Source of the DNA: Streptomyces vietnamensis
GTDB lineage: Bacteria; Actinomycetota; Actinomycetes; Streptomycetales; Streptomycetaceae
DNA length: 64,000 nt
Direction: 5' to 3'
NCBI RefSeq assembly: GCF_000830005.1
Contig: NZ_CP010407.1
Coordinates: 2,027,001-2,091,000 of the forward strand
The translations under genes were made by a program, and so were the position numbers. Shown piece by piece: positions 4,316 to 53,110 of the stretch (the stretch's first letter is position 1; the number at the start of each line of letters is the position of its first letter). The notes beneath the pieces were generated by a model, which ran no database searches, was not told the origin of the DNA, and saw only the letters and a program-made list of their open reading frames with translations.

Positions 4316-5691
4316 CACGTCTCGTCATCGCCGCGCCGTCCTCCGGCGCGGGCAAGACCACGGTCGCGACCGGCCTGATGGCCGCGTTCGCCGGCCGTGG
4401 TCTGGCCGTCTCCCCGCACAAGGTCGGCCCCGACTACATCGACCCCGGCTACCACGCGCTCGCGACCGGCCGCCCGGGCCGCAACCTCGACGCGTACATG
4501 TGCGGTACGGGGCTGATCGCGCCGCTCTTCCTGCACGGGGCGCGCGGCTGCGACCTGGCCGTCGTCGAGGGGGTCATGGGCCTGTACGACGGGGCCGCCG
4601 ACCAGGGCGAGCTGGCGTCCACCGCGCAGGTGGCGAAGCTGCTCAAGGCGCCGGTCGTCCTCGTCGTGGACGCGTCCTCGCAGTCGCGGTCGGTGGCGGC
4701 GCTCGTGCACGGGTTCGCGTCCTGGGATCCGGAGGTGCGGATCGGGGGCGTGATCCTCAACAAGGTCGCGTCGGACCGGCACGAGCATCTGCTGCGGGAG
4801 GCGCTCGGGGAGTCGGGGGTGCCGGTGCTCGGCGTCCTCCGGCGGGCGCCCGCCGTCGCGACGCCGTCCCGGCACCTCGGCCTGGTGCCGGTCGCCGAGC
4901 GGCAGGCCCAGGCGGTGGAGGCGGTGGCCGCGCAGGCGGAGCAGGTTCTCGCCGGGTGCGACATGGAGGCGCTGCTGGCGCTGGCCCGCAGCGCGCCTGA
5001 GCTGCACGCCTCGTTGTGGGCAGGCGTTCCGCAGGGCGGAACGGGTGGGCACAACCCGACCACCGGCCCGCAGACGGCCGACAAGCCTGGCCGTAAACCG
5101 ATCATCGCCGTCGCCGGCGGGGCGGCGTTCACGTTCTCGTACGCCGAGCACACGGAGCTGCTCCAGGCCGCCGGCGCCGAGGTCGTCACCTTCGACCCGC
5201 TCCGGGACGAGGCCCTGCCCGAGGGGACGAGCGGGCTCGTCATCGGCGGCGGCTTCCCCGAGATGTACGGCGAGCAGCTGTCCGCCAACGAGCCGCTCCG
5301 GAAGGCCGTCGCCGAGCTCGCCGCGTCCGGCGCGCCCGTCGCCGCCGAGTGCGCCGGGCTGCTCTACCTCGCGCGGTCGCTCGACGGCCACCCGATGTGC
5401 GGGGTGCTCGACGCCGACGCGCGCATGTCGGAGCGGCTCACGCTCGGCTACCGGGACGCCGTCGCCGTGAGCGACAGCGTCCTCGCTCCGGCCGGGGCAC
5501 GGCTGCGGGGACACGAGTTCCACCGCACCGTCATCGAGCCGGGTGCCGGGCCGCTGGCGGCCTGGGGCCTGCGGCAGCCGGAGCGGCGGGTGGAGGGCTT
5601 CGTGCAGGGCGGGGTGCACGCCAGCTATGTGCACACCCACTGGGCGGGGTCCCCCGAGGTCGCCGCGCGGTTCGTGGAGCACTGCGCGTGA
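4309..5691 (+). CDS. cobB: Cobyrinic acid a,c-diamide synthase with a repeat-derived linker
   Basis: CobB/CbiA amidates the a and c side chains of (hydrogeno)cobyrinic acid. The GTG at 4309 overlaps the cobO stop by seven bases and gives a normal 460 residues; no ATG fits. The N-terminal ATPase domain begins APSSGAGKTTVATGL and contains HKVGPDYIDPGYH. The C-terminal triad-type amidotransferase domain has AAECAGLLYLARS (Cys348) and the late VHTHWAG. Between the domains, about residues 236-250 (SLWAGVPQGGTGGHN) are encoded by a dispersed 43-bp palindromic repeat that also occurs in intergenic regions here. The insertion keeps the frame and lies in a linker, so activity is probably preserved. 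Confidence 0.94.
   Translation: MVARLVIAAPSSGAGKTTVATGLMAAFAGRGLAVSPHKVGPDYIDPGYHALATGRPGRNLDAYMCGTGLIAPLFLHGARGCDLAVVEGVMGLYDGAADQGELASTAQVAKLLKAPVVLVVDASSQSRSVAALVHGFASWDPEVRIGGVILNKVASDRHEHLLREALGESGVPVLGVLRRAPAVATPSRHLGLVPVAERQAQAVEAVAAQAEQVLAGCDMEALLALARSAPELHASLWAGVPQGGTGGHNPTTGPQTADKPGRKPIIAVAGGAAFTFSYAEHTELLQAAGAEVVTFDPLRDEALPEGTSGLVIGGGFPEMYGEQLSANEPLRKAVAELAASGAPVAAECAGLLYLARSLDGHPMCGVLDADARMSERLTLGYRDAVAVSDSVLAPAGARLRGHEFHRTVIEPGAGPLAAWGLRQPERRVEGFVQGGVHASYVHTHWAGSPEVAARFVEHCA
5013..5055 (+). repeat. 43-bp palindromic repeat core inside cobB
   Basis: An outer arm GTTGTG pairs with CACAAC, and an inner arm GTTCCGC pairs with GCGGAAC. The same core recurs near 29.3, 29.5, 36.05, 36.2 and 41.4 kb. 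Here it is read as protein in the interdomain linker of CobB. Only the core is present; the flanking module found in the intergenic copies is absent. Confidence 0.85.
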
Positions 5692-28488: not shown

Positions 28489-29147
28489 GCGCCCCGGCGA
28501 TCAGGATCGTCCTCGCCGACGACGAGCGGATGGTCAGGACGGCCCTGCGGGTCATCCTGGACGCGGAGCCCGGCCTGGAGGTCGTCGGCGAGGCGTCCAC
28601 CGGCGCCGAGGCGGTGTCGGTGGTGCGGGCCGAGCGGCCGGACGTCGTCCTCATGGACGTGCGGATGCCGGAGATCGACGGGATCCGGGCCACCGAGCAG
28701 ATCCTCGCCGGGATGGCGGAGCCGCCGCGGATCGTGGTGGTGACCACCTTCGAGAACGACTCCTACGTGTACGACGCGCTGCGCGTGGGCGCGGCCGGCT
28801 TCCTGCTGAAGCGGGCGGCGGCGGAGGAACTGGTGAGCGCGGTCCGGCTTGTCGCGCGGAGCGACTCGCTGCTCTACCCGGCGGCGGTACGGGGCCTGGC
28901 CGCCGAACACGCCCGCCGCCGGCCGCCGGTGGCACCGCCCTGGGTGGCACGGCTCACCGAACGGGAGGCGGAGGTGCTCCGCCTGGTGGCGACGGGCCTC
29001 ACGAACGCGGAGATCGCCGAGCGGATGGGGGTGGGGCCGGCGACGGTGAAGACGCATGTGGCGGCGGTCCTGTCGAAGCTGGGGGCGCGGGACCGGACGC
29101 AGGCGGTGATCCTGGCGTACGAGTCGGGCTTCACGGGAGCGAACTAA
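28485..29147 (+). CDS. NarL/LuxR-family response regulator
   Basis: A 220-residue regulator with the receiver domain first (ADDERMVRTALR; phospho-acceptor Asp58 in VVLMDVRMP; conserved Lys in FLLKRA) and a GerE/LuxR HTH at the end (LTEREAEVLRLVATGLTNAE... VKTHVAAVLSKLGARDR). GTG 28485 overlaps the kinase stop. It is the cognate regulator of the preceding kinase; targets are not identifiable here. Confidence 0.94.
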   Translation: MSAPAIRIVLADDERMVRTALRVILDAEPGLEVVGEASTGAEAVSVVRAERPDVVLMDVRMPEIDGIRATEQILAGMAEPPRIVVVTTFENDSYVYDALRVGAAGFLLKRAAAEELVSAVRLVARSDSLLYPAAVRGLAAEHARRRPPVAPPWVARLTEREAEVLRLVATGLTNAEIAERMGVGPATVKTHVAAVLSKLGARDRTQAVILAYESGFTGAN

Positions 29148-29617
29148 CCGGCCCCGCACCCGCGCGGACCCGCGCCCGTGTGGACGGCGCCCCTGCCCGT
29201 GCGGGCCCGCGCCCGTGCTGGGCGGTGTCCTTCCGCCGCCCGCCGTGTGGGCCCGTGCCCGGCTGGGCCTTCGCCCAGGTGCCGTGTGACCCGCGCCCGG
29301 CTGGGCCTTCGCCCCCGCCCGTGTGGGCAATCGTCCCGCTGGGGCGGGACGGGTGGGCACACGGGACGGTGCCCCCAGCCGGGCCTAGGCGTTTCGCGCC
29401 CTGACCCGCACCGACCGCGCGGCGCACACAGGGTGCGGGTTCAGGCACGGAAGCCTCTGGCGCCGGCAAGGGCGCCGTTCCGTTGTGCCCACCCGTTCCG
29501 CCCCGGCGGAACGCATGCCCACAACGGGGCGGGCACAGGCCCACGACGGGGCGGGCGCGGGCCCACAACGGCGGGGCGCCGGCCATCAACGGGTGGTGGG
29601 GGCTGGTCGTCGTCGGC
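29148..29617. other. 470-bp repeat-rich convergent junction without genes
   Basis: Bases 29150-29320 are degenerate GC-rich tandem blocks (CCCGGCTGGGCCTTCGCCC appears twice, 45 bases apart). Bases 29321-29527 are an inverted pair of a ~95-bp dispersed element. Bases 29528-29617 carry partial copies of GCCCACAACGGGG. No coding bias is visible in any frame. Confidence 0.8.
29321..29527. repeat. Inverted pair of a ~95-bp hairpin element (copy I)
   Basis: The left arm (29321-29412) runs from a core with outer stem GTGTG/CACAC and inner stem GTCCCGC/GCGGGAC to CTGACCCGCACC. The right arm (29432-29527, opposite strand) has a homologous order but a core with GTTGTG/CACAAC and GTTCCGC/GCGGAAC, and it contains GGAAGCCTCTGGCGCCGGC. 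The arms face each other across 19 bases, so the whole can fold as a long cruciform and also as two smaller hairpins. Confidence 0.85.
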
Positions 29618-30703
29618 TTATGAGCGCGTCGCGGTCCCGCAGCCCGCGCGGCCCTCGGCGATCGGTCCCGTCCGGTCGTACGGGTCGACCGCCTCGCCAC
29701 TCGTAGCGGGCCCTCCCCCGCCGAACTCCGGCCGGAAATAGCCGGTGGCGTTGTCGCAGCCGCCGTTCGTCATGTCGGTCTTGTACGACAGGAGACTGAA
29801 GGTGCCCTTCTCGGTGATCACCTTCGACGGGTCGTCCCAGCTCACCACGGTCTCCCGCCGCACGATCACGCGCACGACCTCGTCGCCGCCGCCGGCCGGC
29901 GCGACCGGGTACACGTACGTGACGTCGGCGGTCACCTCCAGGGCCCCGAGCCGCCCCTCCCGGAAGCTCATCCGGCCACGGGTCTTCACCACGTCGCCGG
30001 CCGGGCGCGCCTGCGCCGGGTCGAAGCGGCTGAAGAGCAGCAGCGGGTCGTGGTCCTTGCCGGGGGCGGCCAGGGAGGTCGTCACGTAGGTCTGGACGTC
30101 CTTCTGGTGCGGGTTCATCAGGGCGATCGCCTTCTCCGGGCGTCCGCCGCGCAGCACCGCCGGGTCCAGGCCGGACGCGGCGAGGAAGTCGCGGGTCCGC
30201 GCGAGGGCGCGTTCCACCTCGGCCTTCGTCATCCAGCCGGTCGCCCTGGCAGGGGGCACGGTGATGCCGGCCGTGCCGTTCGCCCAGTGGGCCGCCGGGG
30301 AGCCCCGGAAGGGCTCGTCGAGGGTGGGCCGTCCGCCCGGCTCGGCGGGCGGTGCCTGGTCCGGCCGCTCCGACTCCTGCGCGAGGGGCTTCCCGGCCGG
30401 GTCGCCGTCGCCGCCGGACCAGCCGACGAAGCCGCCCGGGTCCAGGGCCACGACGAGCAGCACGAGGCAGGCCACGAGCCCCGCCACGTACCAGCCCTTG
30501 CGCCGCCGGGGGCGCCCGGCTGGCGTGTGCGCGCGCCACGGCGTCGGCTCCGCAGGCTCGGCCCGCAGCCGGCCGGCGACCTCGCGGGCCCGCGCGGACG
30601 GCTCCTTCGGCGCGTCGCCCGCGCCCTCGACGGAGGTCCGGAGGAACTCCTCCCACACCTCGTCCGGCACGGACGAACCGTCCTGCTCCCCGCCCCTGCT
30701 CAC
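29618..30703 (-). CDS. Membrane-anchored protein of unknown function
   Basis: A 361-residue protein from GTG 30703 (GAGGAG six bases upstream). An acidic/Arg-rich cytoplasmic segment of about 68 residues is followed by one membrane helix (GWYVAGLVACLVLLVVALDP) and a ~270-residue exported domain. The cytoplasmic part begins DEVWEEFLRTSVEGAGDAP, resembling tails of other Streptomyces envelope proteins. Two or more cysteines near the end (GGCDNATGYF, AGCGTATRS) could form a disulfide. No enzyme motif was found. Confidence 0.75.
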   Translation of the reverse strand: MSRGGEQDGSSVPDEVWEEFLRTSVEGAGDAPKEPSARAREVAGRLRAEPAEPTPWRAHTPAGRPRRRKGWYVAGLVACLVLLVVALDPGGFVGWSGGDGDPAGKPLAQESERPDQAPPAEPGGRPTLDEPFRGSPAAHWANGTAGITVPPARATGWMTKAEVERALARTRDFLAASGLDPAVLRGGRPEKAIALMNPHQKDVQTYVTTSLAAPGKDHDPLLLFSRFDPAQARPAGDVVKTRGRMSFREGRLGALEVTADVTYVYPVAPAGGGDEVVRVIVRRETVVSWDDPSKVITEKGTFSLLSYKTDMTNGGCDNATGYFRPEFGGGGPATSGEAVDPYDRTGPIAEGRAGCGTATRS

Positions 30704-30803
30704 ACCGACTCCTCACCCCGTGCGTCTCGGGCCCCTCCCCAGGGCCCCCACATGATCACATGGTCCTCGGACATGAAGGTTGGCTGAGAAACGGGCCACA
30801 TCC

Positions 30804-30830
30804 GGAACGTCCGGCACCGGCCCGTTCGTC
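30804..30830 (+). promoter_or_regulatory. Candidate SigE-type (ECF) promoter before the PBP gene
   Basis: GGAAC (30804-30808) and CGTC (30827-30830), 18 bases apart, resemble ECF sigma-E promoters, slightly wide in spacing. Transcription would begin only a few bases before ATG 30843. This agrees with the absence of a ribosome-binding site there. Confidence 0.5.
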
Positions 30831-30842
30831 CCCACCAGTGCG

Positions 30843-32291
30843 ATGAACAAGACGATCAGGCACACGTCGGTCTTCGTCCTGGTCCTGGTGCTCGCCCTCC
30901 TCGGGCGGGCCACCTGGGTACAGGCGTACGAAGGCAAGGCGCTCGCGGACGACTCGAAGAACCGGCGGAAGACCATCGCGCAGTACGCGCAGCCGCTCGG
31001 GAACATCGTCGTGGCCGGTTCCCCGGTCACCGGCTCGAAGAGGACGGAGGGATCGGACCTCGCGTACAAGCGCACGTACACGGACGGCAAGCTGTACGCG
31101 GCGGTCACCGGCTACAGCTCGCAGGCGTACGGCGCCACCCAGCTGGAGGGCATCTACTCCAAGGTCCTCGACGGCACCGACGACCGGCTGAAGAACCCCG
31201 TGGACGCCGTCACCCGCAAGCAGCAGCAGCCGGGCACGGTCGTCACCACGATCGACCCGGCCGTGCAGAAGGCCGCCTACCGGGCGCTCGGGAGCAAGAA
31301 GGGCGCGGCCGTCGCCGTCGACCCGGCGACCGGCCGGATCCTCGCCATGGTCTCCACCCCGTCCTACGACCCGTCGAAGATCTCCGGGACGAACGACGGC
31401 GACGTCTGGAAGCGGCTGATGGCCGACGAGGACAAGCCGCTGGTGAACCGCGCGCTCCGGCAGCCGCTCCCGCCCGGCTCCACCTTCAAGCTGGTCGTCG
31501 CGGCCGCCGCCCTGGAGGACGGCCTGTACGGCTCCGTCGACACGGCGACGAAGAGTCCCGACCCGTACACCCTGCCGGGCACCCGGACCGTGCTGAGGAA
31601 CGAGAACGCCTCCGCGCCCTGCGAGAACGCCACGATCCGCACCGCGCTCCGCTATTCCTGCAACAACGTCTTCGGCAAGATGGCCGCCGACCTGGGGCAG
31701 GACAAGGTGAGGGCGATGGCGGAGAAGTTCGGCTTCAACGACGCCGAGCTGGACGTCCCGGTCCGCGCCTACGCGAGCGTGTACCCCTCCGGCATGGACA
31801 AGGCGCAGACGGCGCTGACCGGCATCGGCCAGTTCGACGTGACCGCCACCCCGCTGCAGATGGCCATGGTGTCGGCCGCGATCGCCAACGACGGCCTGCT
31901 CGCCGCCCCGCACATGGTCTCGGAGGTCGTCGACTCCGACGGCGACGCGCTGACCTCGTACAAGGACGGGGACACCGAGCGGATCGTCTCCTCCTCGACG
32001 GCCGAACAGCTGCGCAGCGCGATGGTGACCGTGGTGGAGAAGGGCACCGGCACCAACGCGGCGGTGGACGGCGCCGAGGTCGGCGGCAAGACCGGCACCG
32101 CGCAGCACGGCGAGAACAACAGCAAGACGCCGTACGCCTGGTTCACCTCGTACGCCAAGGACGCCTCGACCGGGAAGCAGGTCGCCGTCGCGGTCATGAT
32201 CGAGGACTCGGGCGCGGCCCGCTCCGAGGTCAGCGGCAACGGCCTGGCGGCCCCGGTGGCGCAGAAGATGATGGAAGCCGCGCTGAAGTGA
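30843..32291 (+). CDS. Class B penicillin-binding protein (PbpA-like transpeptidase)
   Basis: A 482-residue DD-transpeptidase with one N-terminal membrane anchor (TSVFVLVLVLALLGRATWVQ), a short dimerisation domain and a C-terminal transpeptidase domain. The catalytic SxxK is Ser213-Lys216 in PPGSTFKLV, SxN is YSCNNVFG, and KTG is GGKTGTAQHG. ATG 30843 matches the normal PbpA start; it has no ribosome site and may be leaderless. Unlike the pbpA partner of rodA, no SEDS gene is adjacent, so this is a stand-alone paralogue. An ECF-like promoter suggests induction by envelope stress. Confidence 0.93.
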   Translation: MNKTIRHTSVFVLVLVLALLGRATWVQAYEGKALADDSKNRRKTIAQYAQPLGNIVVAGSPVTGSKRTEGSDLAYKRTYTDGKLYAAVTGYSSQAYGATQLEGIYSKVLDGTDDRLKNPVDAVTRKQQQPGTVVTTIDPAVQKAAYRALGSKKGAAVAVDPATGRILAMVSTPSYDPSKISGTNDGDVWKRLMADEDKPLVNRALRQPLPPGSTFKLVVAAAALEDGLYGSVDTATKSPDPYTLPGTRTVLRNENASAPCENATIRTALRYSCNNVFGKMAADLGQDKVRAMAEKFGFNDAELDVPVRAYASVYPSGMDKAQTALTGIGQFDVTATPLQMAMVSAAIANDGLLAAPHMVSEVVDSDGDALTSYKDGDTERIVSSSTAEQLRSAMVTVVEKGTGTNAAVDGAEVGGKTGTAQHGENNSKTPYAWFTSYAKDASTGKQVAVAVMIEDSGAARSEVSGNGLAAPVAQKMMEAALK

Positions 32292-32422
32292 AGTGACGTG
32301 AAGTGACGGGAGACGGGGGCCGATTGGCCGCGGGTCCCCGTCGCACGATATGCAGGGTCACGCTCGTGGACCGAGCACGTATTCGATCCGCTGACCCTGC
32401 ACTCACCTCGCGGAGGACCGCC

Positions 32423-32839
32423 GTGCGCCTGCCCCGTTCCCTGTCCGGCTGGACCATGGCGGTCTTCGGCGTGCTCGCCGCCGCCCTGGGGGTGGTGGGC
32501 CTGGTCGTCCCGGACGCCCTGCTCACCGTCATGGGCTTCGAGCCGGTGCCCGCGGGCGGGCGCGCCGACGGCGACCACACCCTGGTGTTCCTGACGGCCT
32601 CCTCGATGGCCGCGCTCAACATGGGCGTCTACTACGTCCTGGCCGCCCTCGCCGACTGGAAGCCCTTCTTCCGCTGGACGGTCCCCTTCCGGCTGCTCAC
32701 CTTCACGGTCTTCACCCTGGCGGTCGTCACCGGCCGCGCCCCGTCCGGCTTCCTCGGCGTGGGCCTGTGGGAGGGGCTCGGCGCGGTGGTGACGGGGGTC
32801 GCGCTGCGGTACGAGAAGCGGGCGGTGGCGCATGCGTGA
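32423..32839 (+). CDS. Small four-helix membrane protein
   Basis: A 138-residue protein with four hydrophobic segments (starting WTMAVFGVLAAALGVVGLVV). GTG 32423 has GGAGG six bases upstream; longer in-frame starts have no such site and unlike codon use. The TGA overlaps the ATG of the HEAT-repeat gene. I do not recognise a family beyond a general resemblance to small DUF4345-like membrane proteins. Confidence 0.75.
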   Translation: MRLPRSLSGWTMAVFGVLAAALGVVGLVVPDALLTVMGFEPVPAGGRADGDHTLVFLTASSMAALNMGVYYVLAALADWKPFFRWTVPFRLLTFTVFTLAVVTGRAPSGFLGVGLWEGLGAVVTGVALRYEKRAVAHA

Positions 32840-34826
32840 GCCGGACGGGATCGACGACATCGCCTGGGGCTCCCTGGAACACGCGTACGGGGCGGCCACC
32901 GACGTCCCCGGCCTTCTCCGGGCCCTGTACCGGCCGGACGAGGCGGCGGAGGCCGCCGACGAACTCCTCACGAACATCCACCACAGCGGCGGCTGCGTAG
33001 TCTCCTCCGCCGTGGCGGCCCTTCCCTTCCTCGTCCGCGCCGCCGCCGATCCGGCCGTGACGGTCCGGGCGGACCTCCTGGACCTCGTCGCGTGCCTCGC
33101 CTGCGAGGGGAACAGAGTCGAACCGCGCTGGGTCGCCCGCGGCTGGGCGGAGGCCTGGGACGCGGCCGTCACGGTCCTCCTCCCCCTCCTCCACGATCCG
33201 TCCGCCGACGTACGACGGGCCGTCACCGAGGCGCTCGGCGAGGCCCGGCCGCGGGCCGCCGAGGTGCTCGCCCTGCTGTGGGCCCGCTGGGAGACGGAGA
33301 CCGACACCGCCGTCCGGCACGGGATCGTCGAGGCCGTGCGCGACCTCGCCCCGCACGCCGACCGGGAGCACGAGCGGACCGTCGGACGGCTGCGGGACCT
33401 GACCCGGCCGGGGGTCGAACCCGGCGTACGGCTCCGGGCCGTGGAGGCGCTGCGCGCCGCCCAGCCCGGCACCGCCGATCCACGGCACGCGCGCGTGGTC
33501 GCCGAGGTGCTGGCCGGCGGCGAGCTGGGCGGCCGGTCGGTCACGCAGGCGCTCCGGCTCCTCGGCGCCGACCGCACCGCCGTCACCGGCCTGATCGCGA
33601 AGCTCCTCGGACACGCCGACGCGACGACCCGGCGCGGCGCCCTGGAGGCGGCCGCCGGGGAGCTGGGCCGGTGGCGCTCGGCCGTACCGGCCCTGCTGCC
33701 CGCGGTGGCGGCCCTGCTCGGCGACCCGGAACCGGAGAACCGGCTCTTCGCCGCCCGGGTCCTCGGCATGTGCGGGACCGCCGCCCGGCCGTGGGCGGAC
33801 CGGCTCTCCGCGATGGTCACGGACGAGGGCGAGGCCTACCTGCCCGCCCAGGACCACGCCCTGTGGGCGCTGTCCCGGACCGGCGACCCGTGCTGCGCGG
33901 AGCCGCTGGCCCGCCGCCTCGCCGGGGAGCGGCTCGGCTTCGCGTACTGCTCGGTCCATTCGCCGAGCTGGTGGACGCACGACCTGAGCCTCCACGAGAC
34001 GCTCGGCCCGCTCGCCGCCCACGCCGAGGTGCTGCTGCCGCCGCTGCGGGCCGCGCTCGCCGCCGCCGGCTCCCTCGACGCCCGACGCGCGCTCTGCCAG
34101 GTCCTGACGGACTGGGGCCCGGCCGCCGCGCCGGCGATCCCCGAGCTGATCGGCCTCCTTGAGACCGACGGCGCCGTCTGGGCGCTCGACGCGCTCTCGG
34201 CGATCGGCCCGGAGGCCGCGGCGGCCGTGGACCGGGCGCGGCTGCGGGTCCTGCTGCGCGTCCGGCCCCCGGGCCGGCCGTTCGCGCCGGCCATGCTGGC
34301 CCTCGCGTACGGACGGCTGACGGGCGACCGGGAGCCGGCCCGCAAGCTGCTGCTCCCGAGGCTCGCGGAGCCGTACGGGGACGCCCAGGCCCTGGCCCTG
34401 CTCGGCGAGCTCGGCGCGGCGGGAGCCCCGTACACGGACCGGCTGCGGGAACTGCTCCACCGGGACGACACGGGCTGGCTGCCGCTGCGCGCCGGCGAGG
34501 CGCTGTGGCGGGTCACCGGTCGCGCCGACGAGGTGGTGCCCGCGCTGGTGGCGGCGATCGAGCCGTACACCGGCGGGGGCGTCACCCGGTCGGTCACCGA
34601 GACGGTCCGGCTGCTCGGCCGGATCGGCCCGGCGGCCGCGCCCGCCGTACCCGCGCTCCGGGCGTTCCTCGACGCGGACGAGCGGCCGGTGGAGCACGGC
34701 AGCTGGCGGTCCGTACCGGAGGACGACGAGCTGTGCGCGGCGGCGCACGCCGCGCTGCGGGCCGTCGCGGGTCCGGCGCCCCGCGGCGCCGGAACACCGC
34801 CCGACCAGGGCGATCGCCGGATGTGA
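32832..34826 (+). CDS. HEAT-repeat scaffold protein
   Basis: A 664-residue soluble protein built of roughly 12-15 HEAT/PBS-lyase-type helical repeats (for example LLHDPSADVRRAVTEALGEARP, LLGDPEPENRLFAARVLGMCG, LLETDGAVWALDALSAIG). No catalytic site is visible. It begins MREPDGIDDIAWGSLEHAYG, overlapping the small membrane protein by eight bases. The two may form a membrane-linked complex. Proteins of this type are frequent and mostly uncharacterised in Streptomyces. Confidence 0.85.
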   Translation: MREPDGIDDIAWGSLEHAYGAATDVPGLLRALYRPDEAAEAADELLTNIHHSGGCVVSSAVAALPFLVRAAADPAVTVRADLLDLVACLACEGNRVEPRWVARGWAEAWDAAVTVLLPLLHDPSADVRRAVTEALGEARPRAAEVLALLWARWETETDTAVRHGIVEAVRDLAPHADREHERTVGRLRDLTRPGVEPGVRLRAVEALRAAQPGTADPRHARVVAEVLAGGELGGRSVTQALRLLGADRTAVTGLIAKLLGHADATTRRGALEAAAGELGRWRSAVPALLPAVAALLGDPEPENRLFAARVLGMCGTAARPWADRLSAMVTDEGEAYLPAQDHALWALSRTGDPCCAEPLARRLAGERLGFAYCSVHSPSWWTHDLSLHETLGPLAAHAEVLLPPLRAALAAAGSLDARRALCQVLTDWGPAAAPAIPELIGLLETDGAVWALDALSAIGPEAAAAVDRARLRVLLRVRPPGRPFAPAMLALAYGRLTGDREPARKLLLPRLAEPYGDAQALALLGELGAAGAPYTDRLRELLHRDDTGWLPLRAGEALWRVTGRADEVVPALVAAIEPYTGGGVTRSVTETVRLLGRIGPAAAPAVPALRAFLDADERPVEHGSWRSVPEDDELCAAAHAALRAVAGPAPRGAGTPPDQGDRRM

Positions 34827-34910
34827 CGGGGTGGCGGAGGGGCCGCAGGCCCTGATTCCTAGGGCATCTGACCGATCCCCGCGGACCGCCTCAGACGCCA
34901 GCCTTCGGCC

Positions 34911-36137
34911 ATGCGTTGGTATTGGTATCTGACAGGTGTCGTCGTCTCCGGATTCGGCACGACGGCGATGTGGCTGGTCTCCGGGATCTGGGTCAAGTCG
35001 CTCACGGGCTCGGACAGCCTGGCGGCCCTGGCCTCCTTCGCCCTGTGGGCGCCCGTGCTCCTCGGGCCGCTGCTCGGCACGCTCGCCGACCGGGTGCGGC
35101 GCAGACCGCTCATGGTCGTCCTGAACCTGGCGATGGCGTGCCTGCTGCCGCTCCTGCTGTGGGTGGAGTCGGCGGACCGGGTGTGGCTGCTCTTCGCGGT
35201 CCTCGTCCTCTACGGGGCGCAGGGCTCCGTCCACGACGCGGCGGAGCAGGCCCTGATGGCGAACGTGGTCGACGAGGACCGGCTCGGCACGTTCAACGGG
35301 CTGCGGATGACGGCGAACGAGTCGATGAAGCTGATCGCCCCGCTGGTCGCGGCGGGGCTCTTCGCCGCGTACGGCGGCGGGCCCGTCGCCCTCCTGGACG
35401 CGGTGACCTTCGCGGTCGCGGCCGGCGTGTTCGCGCTGATGCCGGTCCGGGAGGCGCCTCCCGCCCGGCCGGAGTCCCGGAACTGGTGGCGCGAGACGGC
35501 CGAGGGCGTACGGCTCCTCCGGGCCTCGCGCCCGCTGCGGCCGCTGGTGGCGACGGGCGCGTTCACGATGCTGCTCGCCGGGGTGAACGGCGCCGCGATC
35601 TACGCCGTCGTGGACGAGGGGCTCGGGCACGCGCCCGCGTACGTCGGTGTCCTGTACGCGGTCCAGGGCGTGGGCTCGGTCCTCGCGGGCCTGGTCTCGG
35701 GCCCGCTGCTCCGCCGGATCCCGGAGCGGACCCTCGCCGCCGTCGGCCTGGCGCTGTTCGCGGTGGCGGTGGGGGTACGGGGAGCGCTGCCGTACGAGGC
35801 GACGGCCCTGGCGGCGAGCGCGATGATCGGCCTGGGGATGCCGTGGGTCCTGATCGCGGTGATGACGGCGGTCCAGAAGGAGGCCCCGCCGGAGGCCGTC
35901 GGCCGGGTGGCGGCGACCGCGAACACCCTGGTCATGGCGCCGAACGCACTGGCGATCGCGCTCGGCGCGGGGCTGGTCGCGGTGACGGACGCCCGGGTAC
36001 TGCTCCCGCTGCTGGCGCTGGCGGGCGTCGCCTGGGCGGCGGGCCTCGGCTTCCGTGTGGGCAATCGTCCCGCAGGGCGGGACGGGTGGGCACACGGGAC
36101 GGCGCCCTCGGCGGCGCCTCCGCCCCCTGCTCCCTGA
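34911..36137 (+). CDS. MFS transporter with a repeat-encoded C-terminal tail
   Basis: A 408-residue protein with about 10-12 membrane segments and a motif-A-like LADRVRRRPLMVVLNL, in the NreB/Bcr-like branch often seen with unknown substrates. The start MRWYWYLTGVVVSGFGTTAMWL lacks an upstream ribosome site and could be leaderless. The last 26 residues (VGNRPAGRDGWAHGT... to the end) are encoded by the left arm of a dispersed hairpin element. The native end was probably near GLGFR. The tail is cytoplasmic, so function is likely kept. Confidence 0.88.
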   Translation: MRWYWYLTGVVVSGFGTTAMWLVSGIWVKSLTGSDSLAALASFALWAPVLLGPLLGTLADRVRRRPLMVVLNLAMACLLPLLLWVESADRVWLLFAVLVLYGAQGSVHDAAEQALMANVVDEDRLGTFNGLRMTANESMKLIAPLVAAGLFAAYGGGPVALLDAVTFAVAAGVFALMPVREAPPARPESRNWWRETAEGVRLLRASRPLRPLVATGAFTMLLAGVNGAAIYAVVDEGLGHAPAYVGVLYAVQGVGSVLAGLVSGPLLRRIPERTLAAVGLALFAVAVGVRGALPYEATALAASAMIGLGMPWVLIAVMTAVQKEAPPEAVGRVAATANTLVMAPNALAIALGAGLVAVTDARVLLPLLALAGVAWAAGLGFRVGNRPAGRDGWAHGTAPSAAPPPPAP

Positions 36138-36259
36138 CCCGCACCCCAACGGCGCCGCACGACGTGGTGCGGGCTCAGGCGCGGAAGCCTCTGGCGCCGG
36201 CAGGGCGCGGGCCCGTTGTGCCCACCCGTTCCGCCCCAGCGGAACGATTGCCCACAACG
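36054..36259. repeat. Inverted pair of the ~95-bp hairpin element (copy II)
   Basis: The left arm (36054-36145) has the GTGTG/GTCCCGC core; the right arm (36166-36259) has the GTTGTG/GTTCCGC core. Each ends in (C)TGACCCGCACC or its complement, and the arms are separated by 20 bases. Total length (206 bp) and arm types match copy I. The left arm is translated as the end of the MFS protein. Confidence 0.85.
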
Positions 36260-36449
36260 GGGGCGGCACGAGGCGCCCACAACGGGCGGGGGGGCACCGC
36301 CCAGCCGAGTGCGGGCCCCACACGGGCGCGGGCGCGGCCCGCGCGGGGCGGGGGCGGCGCTCAGCCGGGTGCGGGGCCATAACGAGCGGGGCGGGCAGTG
36401 GGCGGGGAGCATGGAGGGAGGCGCGCGGGCGCAGTGGGAGGAGGGCAGG
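36138..36449. other. Gene-free spacer, mostly repeat-derived
   Basis: This stretch holds the rest of copy II of the hairpin element, then GC-rich sequence (36260-36400) with partial GCCCACAACGGG copies. A purine-rich zone leads into the phosphatase start. Codon bias is absent. Confidence 0.7.
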
Positions 36450-38516
36450 GTGACGGCCGGATCCTTCCCTGGGACGACGGGGCGGGCCGGTGTGCCCCTG
36501 GACGGCAAGGGACTCCTCGACGTGCTCGGCGTCGCCGCCGTCGTCATCGACGCCCGCGGCCGCATCGTGCTGTGGAGCCCCCAGGCGGAGACCCTCTTCG
36601 GGTTCCGCGCCGACGAGGCCCTCGGGCAGTACGTGGCCCGGCTGATCGTCGACGAGGACCACCGCGAGGAGGCGATGCGCCTCTTCGGCGAGGTGCTGCG
36701 CGGCGGCACGGCCTGGGCGGGCACCTTCCCCGTACGGCACAAGGACGGCTCCACCCGGCGGGTGGAGTTCCGCAACATGCGGCTCACCGACGACCTGGGC
36801 GACCTCTACGCCCTGGGGATCGCCGCCGACGCCGCCGCCGTCGAGCGGATCGAGACCGAGCTCGCGCTCTCGGACCGGCTGGTCTCCCAGTCGCCGATCG
36901 GCCTCGCCGTCCTCGACACCGAGCTGCGGTACGTCCTGGTGAACCCGGCCCTGGAGCGGATCAACGGCATCCCGGCCGCGGAGCACCTCGGACGGCGGAT
37001 CGGCGACATGCTGCCGATGCTCGACGCCGTGACGCTCGACTCCGCGCTGCGCACGGTGCTCAGCACGGGGACGCCGCTGCTCGACCACCCCACGGTGGGG
37101 CGGACGCCCGCGGACCCGGACCACGACCACGCCTGGACGGTCTCCCTCTACCGCCTGGAGGGTTCCGAGGGCCGCATCCTGGGCGTCGCGGCCTCGGTGA
37201 TCGACGTGACCGAGCGGCATCTGGCGGACGCGGCCGCCGACCGGTCCCGGCGGCGGCTCGCGCTCATCGCGGACGCCTCGGCCCGGGTGGGCACCACCCT
37301 GGAGGTGGAGCGGACGGCCGACGAGCTGGCCTCGGTCGTGGTGCCGGCGCTCGCGGACATCGCCGCCGTCGACGTCCTCGACTCCGTCCTGGCGGTGCGC
37401 AGGCCGGGCGCGCCCGAGGAGGGGCCCGAGCTGTTCCGCGCGCTCGCGGTGAAGGCGGAGGGCAGCACGGAGGCGCTGCCGGCGGCGGACCCGCCCGGGG
37501 AAGTCGCGATGTACGGCGCGGACCGGCTGGTCACCCGGTGCGTGCACACCGGTCTGCCGGTCCTGGTGGAGCACGTGGGCCCCGGCGACCTGGCGCGGAT
37601 CGCGCGGAACTCCGAGGCCGCCGAGCTGCTCGCGCGGGCCGGGGTCCACTCGTACCTGGCGGTGCCGCTGATCGCGCGCGGCGAGGTGCTCGGCGCGCTC
37701 GACCTCAAGCGGGACCGCAACGCGCTGCCGTTCGACGGGGACGACGTGCTGCTCGCGACGGAGCTCGCGGCGCGCGCGGCCGTCAGCATCGACAACGCGC
37801 GCTGGTACCAGAGCGTGCGGAACTCGGCGGTGACGCTCCAGCGCAGTCTGCTGCCGGGGTCTCCCCCGGAGCGGGCGGGCCTGGAGGTCGCCGCCCGCTA
37901 CCAGCCGGCGTACGCGTCGAGCGAGGTCGGCGGCGACTGGTACGACGTGATCGCGCTGCCCGACGACAAGACGGCGCTGGTCGTCGGGGACGTGATGGGC
38001 AGCGGGATCGACGCGGCGGCGACGATGGGCCGGCTGCGGACGGCGACCTGCGCGTTCGCCGACCTCGACCTGTCCCCCGCGCAGGTCCTGCGGCATCTGG
38101 ACCGGATCACGGCGGGCCTGGAGCACTACATCGCGACCTGTCTGTTCGCCGTGCACGACCCGGTGCGGCAGCGGTGCCGGATCGCGAACGCGGGCCATCT
38201 GCCGCCCGTCCGGGTCCCGGTGGACGGGCCGGCGGAGCTGGTGCGGCTCTCCACGGGGGTGCCCCTGGGGGTCGGCGGCGGCATCTTCCGGACGGCGCGG
38301 GTGCCGTTCCGGCCCGGGGACCGTCTGGTGCTCTACACGGACGGTCTGATCGAGACCCGTACCGAGGCGATCGACGATCGGCTCGCCCTGCTCGTACGCC
38401 TCCTCGACGAGGCCCGCGGGCCCCTCGAGGAGACCTGCGACCTGCTCCTGCGGGCGCTGCGTCGGCCGGGCGCGCCGGACGACGTGGCGCTCCTGATCGC
38501 CCGGAGCACGGGATGA
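36450..38516 (+). CDS. PAS-PAS-GAF-SpoIIE serine phosphatase
   Basis: A 688-residue cytoplasmic sensor phosphatase: PAS 1 (~20-135, VVIDARGRIVLWSPQAETLFGF), PAS 2 (~140-265, LAVLDTELRYVLVNPALERING), GAF (~275-440, LRARAGVHSYLAVPLIARGEVLG-like) and a PP2C/SpoIIE domain (~465-685) with metal aspartates in EVGGDWYDVIAL, VVGDVMGSG and DDVALLIA. Such proteins dephosphorylate anti-anti-sigma factors. GTG 36450 has GGAGGAGG a few bases upstream and is preferred over ATG 36411. The TGA overlaps the ATG of a second, homologous phosphatase gene. Confidence 0.9.
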   Translation: MTAGSFPGTTGRAGVPLDGKGLLDVLGVAAVVIDARGRIVLWSPQAETLFGFRADEALGQYVARLIVDEDHREEAMRLFGEVLRGGTAWAGTFPVRHKDGSTRRVEFRNMRLTDDLGDLYALGIAADAAAVERIETELALSDRLVSQSPIGLAVLDTELRYVLVNPALERINGIPAAEHLGRRIGDMLPMLDAVTLDSALRTVLSTGTPLLDHPTVGRTPADPDHDHAWTVSLYRLEGSEGRILGVAASVIDVTERHLADAAADRSRRRLALIADASARVGTTLEVERTADELASVVVPALADIAAVDVLDSVLAVRRPGAPEEGPELFRALAVKAEGSTEALPAADPPGEVAMYGADRLVTRCVHTGLPVLVEHVGPGDLARIARNSEAAELLARAGVHSYLAVPLIARGEVLGALDLKRDRNALPFDGDDVLLATELAARAAVSIDNARWYQSVRNSAVTLQRSLLPGSPPERAGLEVAARYQPAYASSEVGGDWYDVIALPDDKTALVVGDVMGSGIDAAATMGRLRTATCAFADLDLSPAQVLRHLDRITAGLEHYIATCLFAVHDPVRQRCRIANAGHLPPVRVPVDGPAELVRLSTGVPLGVGGGIFRTARVPFRPGDRLVLYTDGLIETRTEAIDDRLALLVRLLDEARGPLEETCDLLLRALRRPGAPDDVALLIARSTG

Positions 38517-41327: not shown

Positions 41328-41497
41328 CGTTGTGGGCATGCGTTCCGCCGGGCGGTGCCCACCCCGTTGTGGGCAATCGTTCCGCTGGGGCAAGGGGGTC
41401 CCCCCTGCTCGAGCGAAGCCGAGAGCTTGGGGGAGGGTGGGCACAACGGACGGCGCCCTTTGCCGGCGCCAGAGGCTTCCGGGCCTGAACCCGCACC
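41328..41497 (+). repeat. Half copy of the hairpin element, preceded by a decayed core
   Basis: A decayed core (41328-41364) is followed by one full right-type arm (41365-41497), which begins CGTTGTGGGCAATCGTTCCGC and ends CCTGAACCCGCACC. The arm is split by a second repeat at 41392-41434. The facing left arm of copies I and II is missing; instead the GntR-type operator begins 11 bases later. Confidence 0.8.
41392..41434. repeat. Second hairpin repeat nested inside the element
   Basis: A 43-base block with GGGGGTCCCCCC at its left, CTCGAGCGAAGCCGAGAG in the middle and TTGGGGGAG at its right. It interrupts the core of the element, replacing the expected GGAAC. Similar CTCGAGCGAAGCCGAG hairpins are, as I recall, common intergenic repeats in Streptomyces. 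Confidence 0.7.
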
Positions 41498-52105: not shown

Positions 52106-53110
52106 CTACGGGGCCGGGGACTTCACGGCCACGGGCTCCGTGGGCACGGGCTCCGTAGGCGCAGGCTCCGTGGGCACGGGCTCCGTAGGCGCAGGCTCCG
52201 TGGGCACGGGCTCCGCGAGCACGGGCTCCGCGAGCGCAGGCTCCGCGGGTGCGGGCTCCGTGGGCGTGGGCTCCGTGGGCGTGGGCCTCTCAGGCACGGG
52301 CTCCGTGGGCACCAGCCTCTCGGGCGCGAGCTCCGTGGGCACCGGCCTCTCGGGCGCGGGTTCCCCGGTGCCGGGCTCACGGCCCGCGGAGGGCCTTCCG
52401 CCTGCGGTCTCCCCGGCCCCCGGGGTCGGCGTCGCGGGGATGCCGGTGACCTCGGCCACCTCGATGGCGTCGTCCGCGAGGTGCTCCAGGGCGGCCCAGA
52501 TCTCCGTGGTGACCCGCACCGCCTCCTCCGCGTCCCCCGCCGCGCACGCCTCGATGAGCCGGGCGTGCAGTGCGGCCGATCCGCAGCTCCCGGCGTCGCC
52601 GAAGAGACGCCGCTCGACGCGGCGGATCAGGGGGGTGTAGCGGGCGATCGTGGCGGCGGCGGCGTGGTTGCCGCTGGCGACGACGAGGACCTGGTGGAGC
52701 TCGTCGTCGGCGTCGAGCGCGGCCTCCACGTCGGAGGCGCGGACGGCCGCCGCGAAGCGCTCGTTGGCCTCGCGCATGGTCCGGATGCCCTCGGGGCCGA
52801 GCAGCGGCACGCCGGTCCTGGCGGCGAGCTCGTGCATCACCCGCACCACCGAGGCGGCGTCCCGGACGACCCGGCTGACCGGCCGGGTGACCCGGGTGTA
52901 GCTCTGCGGCTTGGACTCGACGAGCCCCTCGTCGCCGAGCCGGGCCAGGGCCTCGCGCACGGGTGCGCGCGAGAGCCCGAGCCGTTCGGCGAGATCGGCG
53001 TCCTTCAGCGGCGCGCCGGGGGCGAGGTCCCCGCGCACGATGGCCTCGCGCAGCGCCTCGTACGCCCGGTCACGCAGCAGGGTCCGGCCCACGGGCCGCA
53101 GTGCGTCCAT
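52106..53110 (-). CDS. GntR-family regulator with a long EPVPT-repeat tail, upstream of acdS
   Basis: A 334-residue protein. Residues ~1-225 are a normal FadR-type regulator (winged HTH with [22 protein letters not shown], then FCD with histidines in [15 protein letters not shown]). The last ~100 residues are a proline-rich extension whose core (52134-52358) is 15 pentapeptides of the [10 protein letters not shown] kind. This is far beyond the family's usual 220-240 residues. ATG 53110 lies inside a 35-bp palindrome, so it may be leaderless and autoregulated. The downstream acdS is the likely target. Confidence 0.88.
52134..52358 (-). repeat. 15 tandem 15-bp units in the GntR gene
   Basis: Exactly 225 bp: fifteen units of GGCTCCGTGGGCACG type, each five codons. 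Over the first part the units alternate between two forms, giving a 30-bp higher-order period. Frame is preserved, so unit number changes would only alter tail length. Confidence 0.93.

Follow-up and report, generated by a model that had tools for sequence, protein, structure and literature searches.

A 64,000-nucleotide stretch of Streptomyces vietnamensis DNA (the window; assembly GCF_000830005.1, contig NZ_CP010407.1, positions 2,027,001 to 2,091,000) carries two copies of a ~206-bp element, each a pair of mutually inverted 45-nt hairpins, one of a left (L) and one of a right (R) type. The best reading, to which we assign a probability of about 0.7, is a Streptomyces family resembling the repetitive extragenic palindromic sequences (REPs) of other bacteria and their inverted doublets (REPINs), that is, non-autonomous palindromic repeats copied in trans. 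The hairpin itself is best read as tolerated, or co-opted, as a 3'-end hairpin. In the mechanism that we propose, mosaic arms and a central stem would connect an L-type with an inverted R-type hairpin to give a REPIN-like palindrome that is copied as one unit, presumably by an enzyme acting in trans and perhaps via a single-stranded hairpin intermediate. Copies would persist mostly on the 3' side of genes and within a protein linker, positions at which a strong hairpin may be harmless or may replace a local one.

The Repeat Unit and Its Copies in S. vietnamensis

Direct reading of the sequence places the two elements at ~29319-29526 and 36053-36259 and bears out the initial annotation in its basic points. 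The left arms of both copies have the stems GTGTG/CACAC and GTCCCGC/GCGGGAC, and the right arms of both have GTTGTG/CACAAC and GTTCCGC/GCGGAAC; in each element the arms, together with a central stem CCCGCACC/GGTGCGGG, link the two hairpins. A stretch said to be confined to right arms behaves that way throughout the genome: a GGCGCCAGAGGCTTCC-like sequence (up to three substitutions) is found after 68 of the 82 R hairpins and after none of the 73 L hairpins. The core GCGGRACGGGTGGGCACA has six matches in the window at up to three mismatches, five of them exact, while shuffled sequences average 0.63 with a maximum of 3. A covariance model, R1, trained on hairpins from other genomes, finds five intact copies in the window at 58-74 bits, namely the four arms and a solo hairpin, together with a sixth, interrupted one. 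The two copies described initially are therefore both real, but two further members, at 5012-5056 and 41365-41448, had not been listed. A weak model match at 52166 (21.7 bits) was taken as chance.

Genome-wide, the core occurs 166 times at up to two mismatches, compared with 8 for a reversed control, and the complete pattern-search listings contain 77 left and 80 right exact cores. A search with the 207-bp unit gave at least 84 matches at E ≤ 0.001 (40 of 207 candidates were scored), many of them duplicates in which a single palindromic place is matched on both strands. We clustered the exact cores together with two further cores from the first 100 matches at up to two mismatches, which gives 92 places, all of which were retrieved; decayed copies are not all counted. 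Two intact hairpins are present at 66 of these places, 7 have one arm interrupted or decayed, and 19 are singles. When sorted by outer stem, every one of the 66 two-hairpin places is L+R (LL 0, RR 0), and the core-to-core spacing in two-core places is 131-143 bp. This sorting took in 91 of the 92 places (66 double and 25 single); the remaining place, L070, was tallied as a single with the model. The model reveals a partner at seven single places, of which six are interrupted by another hairpin and one (L037) is decayed. The added partner is of the opposite type in six of the seven, and that of L066 bears a third stem (GCTGTG). Weak same-direction neighbours were also detected at L063 and L108.

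The L core is present in 73 of 73 L hairpins and the R core in 77 of 82, with two of the others altered on both sides, two on one side and one unclear; two hairpins of this genome have other stems. Across 62 aligned L-R copies the hairpins are almost invariant, and the arm blocks are a few variants shuffled among copies, a pattern such as gene conversion or template switching would produce. Arrays of half-motifs (CCGTGTGGGCCCGCGCC.. leftward, ..GGCGCAGGCCCACAACGG rightward) lie at 29160-29320 and 29530-29590 and beside many other L-R copies; they look like decayed older units.

Hairpin Structure and Covariation

From the outside to the tip, the basic ~45-nt hairpin begins with an outer stem of ~6-8 pairs that ends at a GG/GG internal loop; two further pairs (C-G and A-T) separate this from a second internal loop, nn/GG, which is followed by an inner stem of 8 pairs and a tip of 3-4 nt. 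Because our search patterns preset the GG letters on the 3' side and a large part of the inner stem, we relied on the outer stem and on the 5'-side GTGGGC as tests of the structure. Covariation was assessed in 41 distinct hairpins with a 3-nt tip, drawn from a set of 60 loci in other genomes; hairpins with a tip of any other length were set aside. Of the cells in these 41, 97.3% are paired by the structure, a value to which the search pattern contributes by having fixed most of the inner part, and slid structures pair at most 48.6%. The five outer pairs that the pattern left free are paired in 191 of 205 cells, and the three outermost pairs are altered on both sides in 8, 11 and 11 sequences. 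Cells with a double change number 36 over all pairs versus 10.0 (standard deviation 2.3) after shuffling; the number of pairs with any double change is not above the shuffles in these 41 hairpins (353 of 500 were as high). When hairpins were selected by their 3' half alone, the 5'-side GTGGGC was present in 158 of 159 from S. vietnamensis and in 30 of 31 from other genomes, and the two exceptions hold an insert.

Outer-stem covariation across genomes thus supports the earlier proposal that the hairpin is under selection. The companion proposal, that the core differences between L and R arms are compensatory, needs correcting: within S. vietnamensis the arms are two fixed types and amount to about one event alone, and covariation is seen in the comparison across genomes. 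Each hairpin is predicted to fold on either strand (-25 to -30 kcal/mol), and a whole element to form one long hairpin (-165 to -174), values obtained without a shuffle control. At shared sites the hairpin is more alike than its spacers (identity 0.93 vs 0.66 and 0.74 over 49 pairs), a comparison biased by the choice of loci through the hairpin pattern. A G-quadruplex was rejected as a common function; the motif is present in the L hairpin and absent from the R and solo consensus, so it is not general. A structured RNA had also been suggested initially. A scan of 28900-36800 against Rfam gave one hit in 7.9 kb, below the gathering score and away from the elements.

Distribution among Genomes

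The full hairpin pattern is present in 103 of 391 Streptomycetales genomes, with none for the control, and 102 of these are Streptomyces; elsewhere it was found as one copy in one of eight genomes of other genera of the same family and in none of 15 from other families. Counts range from 0 to 159 per genome, and 288 of the 391 have none. With one mismatch allowed, the core is found in 224 of 295 Streptomyces genomes, most of which hold a handful, like the control, and 16 of which hold 15 or more. Pairing varies among genomes rich in cores. G224 has 33 exact cores and nine pairs at 140-143 bp, each made of one G and one A core. The 42 exact cores of G089 (all A type) and the 23 of G210 (20 G, 3 A) are never paired at 100-170 bp. 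The idea that the two arms were duplicated as a matched unit therefore stands for S. vietnamensis but not for G089 and G210. Because these two genomes hold singles only, we take the single hairpin to be the basic element, from which the L-R pair of 206 bp was derived as a composite and amplified as a unit. A different arrangement is seen at L211 (G476:C45:291300-294500), where the hairpin stands in three tandem copies with 98-bp spacing.

Within S. vietnamensis the copies are unevenly distributed. The first contig holds every one of the 157 exact cores and the second, of 287 kb, holds none (p 0.007; by places 0/92, p 0.05). Only 4 of the 92 places are less than 1.3 Mb from a chromosome end, against 27 expected. 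This concentration over the chromosome core would suit a binding or unwinding site for a chromosome-organising protein. However, the position lists show no regular spacing, and such a role sits poorly with the 288 genomes that have no full hairpin; we consider it very improbable.

Occupancy of Sites in Relatives

Comparison of single sites between relatives shows that a site may be occupied in one and empty in another. At the element-2 site the hairpin is shared with Streptomyces sp. NK15101 (L185) and S. tanashiensis (L188), that is, with 2 of 18 relatives, or 2 of 13 when both flanking genes align; the matches in L195 fall elsewhere. The element-1 site spans ~470 bp in S. vietnamensis (29147 to 29618) and ~50 bp or less between the same gene ends in four readable relatives. 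The L060 site is ~420 bp long with a pair in S. vietnamensis, 19 bp in G224, occupied by a pair with one interrupted hairpin in G291, and filled by other sequence in G015 and G162 (three loci aligned on one side only). At the L082 site a family hairpin is present in 3 of 24 relatives, two of the 24 being aligned on one side only. One locus at this site, L361 (G238), has a 43-nt hairpin that resembles the fused outer halves of L and R after loss of the interior. The L107 copy is found in S. vietnamensis only, and in none of the 29 best-matching genomes among 199 searched.

What Might Copy the Repeat

This polymorphism fits the initial suggestion of a REP- or MITE-like element mobilised in trans (MITE, miniature inverted-repeat transposable element), but no mobilising gene, among which only Y1 transposases were searched for, and no target-site duplication came to light. 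Several observations weigh against copying in trans. PF01797, the Y1 transposase and the only transposase family searched for, is absent from the S. vietnamensis genome. It occurs in 6 of 20 high-copy genomes, a set that includes S. vietnamensis, and in 4 of 20 low-copy genomes, and the core is absent from all 27 loci around PF01797 hits in 10 genomes. Searches of 72,556 plasmid and 50,697 phage records gave no match to the unit, and viral contigs gave none to the hairpin pattern. No exact flanking repeat of three or more bases was found at the ends of any of 62 copies, the ends themselves being assumed. No precise one-step insertion junction was seen; the flanks are half-motif mosaics, which leaves insertion together with flanks indistinguishable from growth by recombination. 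Finally, 33 of the 60 loci from other genomes form 10 groups with shared flanks, so many copies are old rather than moving; an eleventh group (L214/L228) was left out since its match is the element itself.

Two classical agents can be considered. A MITE derived from a DDE or IS110-type transposon, with the hairpin arms as its ends, would explain the ~206-bp length, the terminal inverted arms and the unit-wise copies. We consider it improbable given the lack of a target-site duplication at the assumed ends and the fact that all exact cores in G089 and G210 are single. Nor is there a transposase among the seven proteins scanned between or beside hairpins 1-3 kb apart at L180, L181 and L183, which are ordinary enzymes, membrane proteins or members of families of unknown function; an autonomous parent between close hairpins was accordingly rejected for these three regions, the ones looked at. 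About equally improbable is a true REPIN driven by a REP-associated tyrosine transposase (RAYT) that the lineage has since lost. Its layout, location and intragenic copies would match the REPs described in the accessible parts of PMC3733652 and PMC3116915, but no shared GTAG tag is present in the alignment or in the 40 nt upstream, S. vietnamensis has no Y1 gene, and the core is near none of the 27 Y1 loci retrieved from other genomes. Moreover, the Actinobacteridae sampled in PMC6006769 carry, in the part of that paper available to us, only subclass 1.1 (IS200-type) Y1 transposases. A RAYT or other Y1 agent was rejected, as the PF01797 search of 40 genomes shows no link to the hairpin. A bolder version of our preferred reading is that actinobacterial REPIN-like palindromes replicate without Y1 or RAYT proteins, by a different hairpin-recognising machinery, and that genes tolerate even an insertion of the hairpin that is in frame and codes for peptide; we put this forward tentatively, at rather less than even odds.

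Placement Relative to Genes

Gene orientation was taken from a gene caller that uses a heuristic based on GC at third codon positions. In S. vietnamensis 59 of the 92 sites were resolved on both sides, 32 of them convergent, 27 co-directional and none divergent; at 31 the caller assigned no gene to at least one flank, and it placed 2 inside genes. In the 60-locus set, which is not independent owing to the 33 loci with common flanks, 43 sites were resolved (11 convergent, 32 co-directional, 0 divergent), and the rest comprise 2 with no hit, 9 called inside genes and 6 with one flank uncalled. The background of 216 gene pairs, which are non-independent because 18 related 21-kb loci are included, contains 53 convergent and 56 divergent pairs (50 divergent of 165 when gaps are at least 20 bases). 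Divergent spacers are therefore avoided in the two main sets (0/102 vs 56/216, Fisher p 5e-11). Convergent spacers are enriched in S. vietnamensis (32/59 vs 53/216, p 3e-5) but not in other genomes (11/43, p 0.85). A third set of 30 loci, which contains duplicate places and was excluded from the 102, has 1 divergent site of 26 resolved, and with an earlier caller version the counts were 33 convergent, 15 co-directional, 0 divergent and 12 inside.

This placement raises the alternative of a portable, bidirectional 3'-end element, in which the hairpin would be kept as a terminator or mRNA 3' stabiliser and spread via recombination or gene conversion. The avoidance of divergent spacers and the convergent enrichment in S. 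vietnamensis agree with it, and the block shuffling among copies suggests conversion. Three solo hairpins (L069, L083 and L084) start, by eye, at or a few bases from a stop codon. The largest shared-site group, nine loci downstream of a urocanase gene, has the hairpin in one direction in eight genomes with matched outer stem changes (CT/AG, CC/GG and TC/GA, for example); L261 adds a second, inverted hairpin and L242 has the inverted one only. At the convergent L107 spacer, the 15 of 29 other genomes (L262-L291) whose spacer was read hold other GC-rich sequence that by eye is often hairpin-like, a variety that may reflect fast turnover of terminator-like sequence.

Stable hairpins without a T-run serve as terminators between convergent genes in actinobacteria. 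The Streptomyces family shares the stable hairpin with these and differs in being conserved in sequence and in having coding insertions. The bidirectional terminator proposed initially thus fits the location in part, but the run of T never exceeds 1 within 15 nt of both ends in 62 of 62 copies, and a terminator scan found none at the elements. The absence of convergent enrichment at the 43 resolved sites of other genomes and the in-frame copies described below also fit a terminator poorly, and counts from 0 to 159 per genome argue against a general need. We therefore consider a 3'-end element a possible but less likely alternative to a repeat copied in trans.

Copies inside Genes and Nested Palindromes

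The solo hairpin of the window is an in-frame part of a cobB-like gene and separates the CbiA domain (residues 3-187) from the GATase_3 domain (264-445). Among the best 30 cobB loci from 246 genomes, S. vietnamensis included, the model detects a hairpin in five, on the gene strand in L292 (S. vietnamensis) and L294 and on the opposite strand in L293, L298 and L308; two further cobB loci (L239 and L243) have it on the gene strand. In this linker, decayed hairpin copies are still recognisable as peptides. At L108 a hairpin lies in frame in a UvrD-like helicase gene, and the MFS (major facilitator superfamily) reading frame of S. vietnamensis extends into element 2. In some copies the 3' inner stem has given way to a second hairpin, GGGGGTCCCC..GGGGGA, whose loop mostly contains CTCGAGCGAAGCCGAGAG. 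This is the case at 41365-41448 and at L035, L056, L066, L085, L087 and L095 in S. vietnamensis, as well as at L185, L188, L322 and L360, at a nearly constant position each time. One palindrome is repeatedly nested in another. Other inserts are carried by L070 and L176.

Comparison with Known Systems

With its 166 cores and hairpin structure, the family is a short, high-copy, mostly extragenic palindrome like the REPs, and in S. vietnamensis, unlike in G089 and G210, the inverted doublet is the copied unit as in REPINs. REPINs, as defined in PMC3116915 and thought there to depend on RAYTs, and bacterial interspersed mosaic elements (BIMEs), from Pseudomonas and Escherichia coli, are likewise pairs of inverted short palindromes copied together and foldable into a larger hairpin; they too lie behind genes, with singles that are partly remnants of pairs (PMC3116915, PMC3733652, in the sections available). 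The Streptomyces repeat differs in having two internal loops, no GTAG tag, a core-to-core distance of 131-143 bp and an actinobacterial host, and no RAYT/TnpA_REP gene was found. An unpaired GTAG end tetranucleotide is seen neither in the alignment nor in the 40 nt upstream. Since the tests for the tag and for a RAYT failed, we do not file the family as a REPIN, though it is REPIN-like in its working. The accessible text of PMC3733652, in which the terms Streptomyces and Actinobacter are absent, describes inverted REP dimers often made of unlike partners, 3' locations, intragenic units and CGTC-tagged REPs without a dedicated transposase, Rickettsia palindromic elements included. These CGTC REPs resemble our repeat as short palindromes that are also intragenic, but they have an unpaired CGTC end tag with an 8-9 bp stem and a 4-5 nt loop. 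In the Streptomyces hairpin CGTC or CGTT is paired within the stem, CG(T/C) being part of the inner stem, and stem, loop and tail differ. MITEs are similarly small and non-coding with inverted ends and many copies; our repeat departs from them in its self-standing half-elements and in that no target-site duplication was seen.

A literature search by sequence strings and topic, with subscription papers outside its coverage, gave no description of this hairpin family among the matches listed. PMC4681348 reports short stable transcripts at palindromes in S. coelicolor, and the family is unnamed in the part of it available. Paired, amplified and covarying palindromes without a Y1 transposase in tractable Streptomyces make the question of what copies REP-like repeats a testable one. 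The natural hairpins at gene 3' ends, and the natural in-frame insertions, offer sites at which effects can be measured, on transcription in the former case.

Table 1. Family members and their parts in the window (window positions; scores from model R1)
Feature	Position	Strand	Description	Score (bits)
Element 1, L-type hairpin	29319..29364	+	stem CCGTGTG/CACACGG, core GTCCCGC/GCGGGAC	58.4
Element 1, interior	29365..29480	.	mosaic arm blocks, central CCCGCACC/GGTGCGGG stem, right-arm GGAAGCCTCTGGCGCC	
Element 1, R-type hairpin	29481..29526	-	stem GTTGTG/CACAAC, core GTTCCGC/GCGGAAC	60.7
Element 2, L-type hairpin	36053..36097	+	within 3' end of MFS-family open reading frame 34911-36137	66.6
Element 2, interior	36098..36213	.	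mosaic arm blocks and central stem	
Element 2, R-type hairpin	36214..36259	-		62.5
Solo hairpin	5012..5056	+	in frame in cobB-like gene between CbiA and GATase_3 domains	73.6
Interrupted R-type hairpin	41365..41448	+	other hairpin repeat (GGGGGTCCCCCC..GGGGGA) in place of 3' inner stem	30.8

Outside the window, L070 and L071 (G000:C1 2931611 and 2932650) are two same-direction hairpins 1 kb apart, one of them interrupted by a different insert; the genes around them are ordinary.

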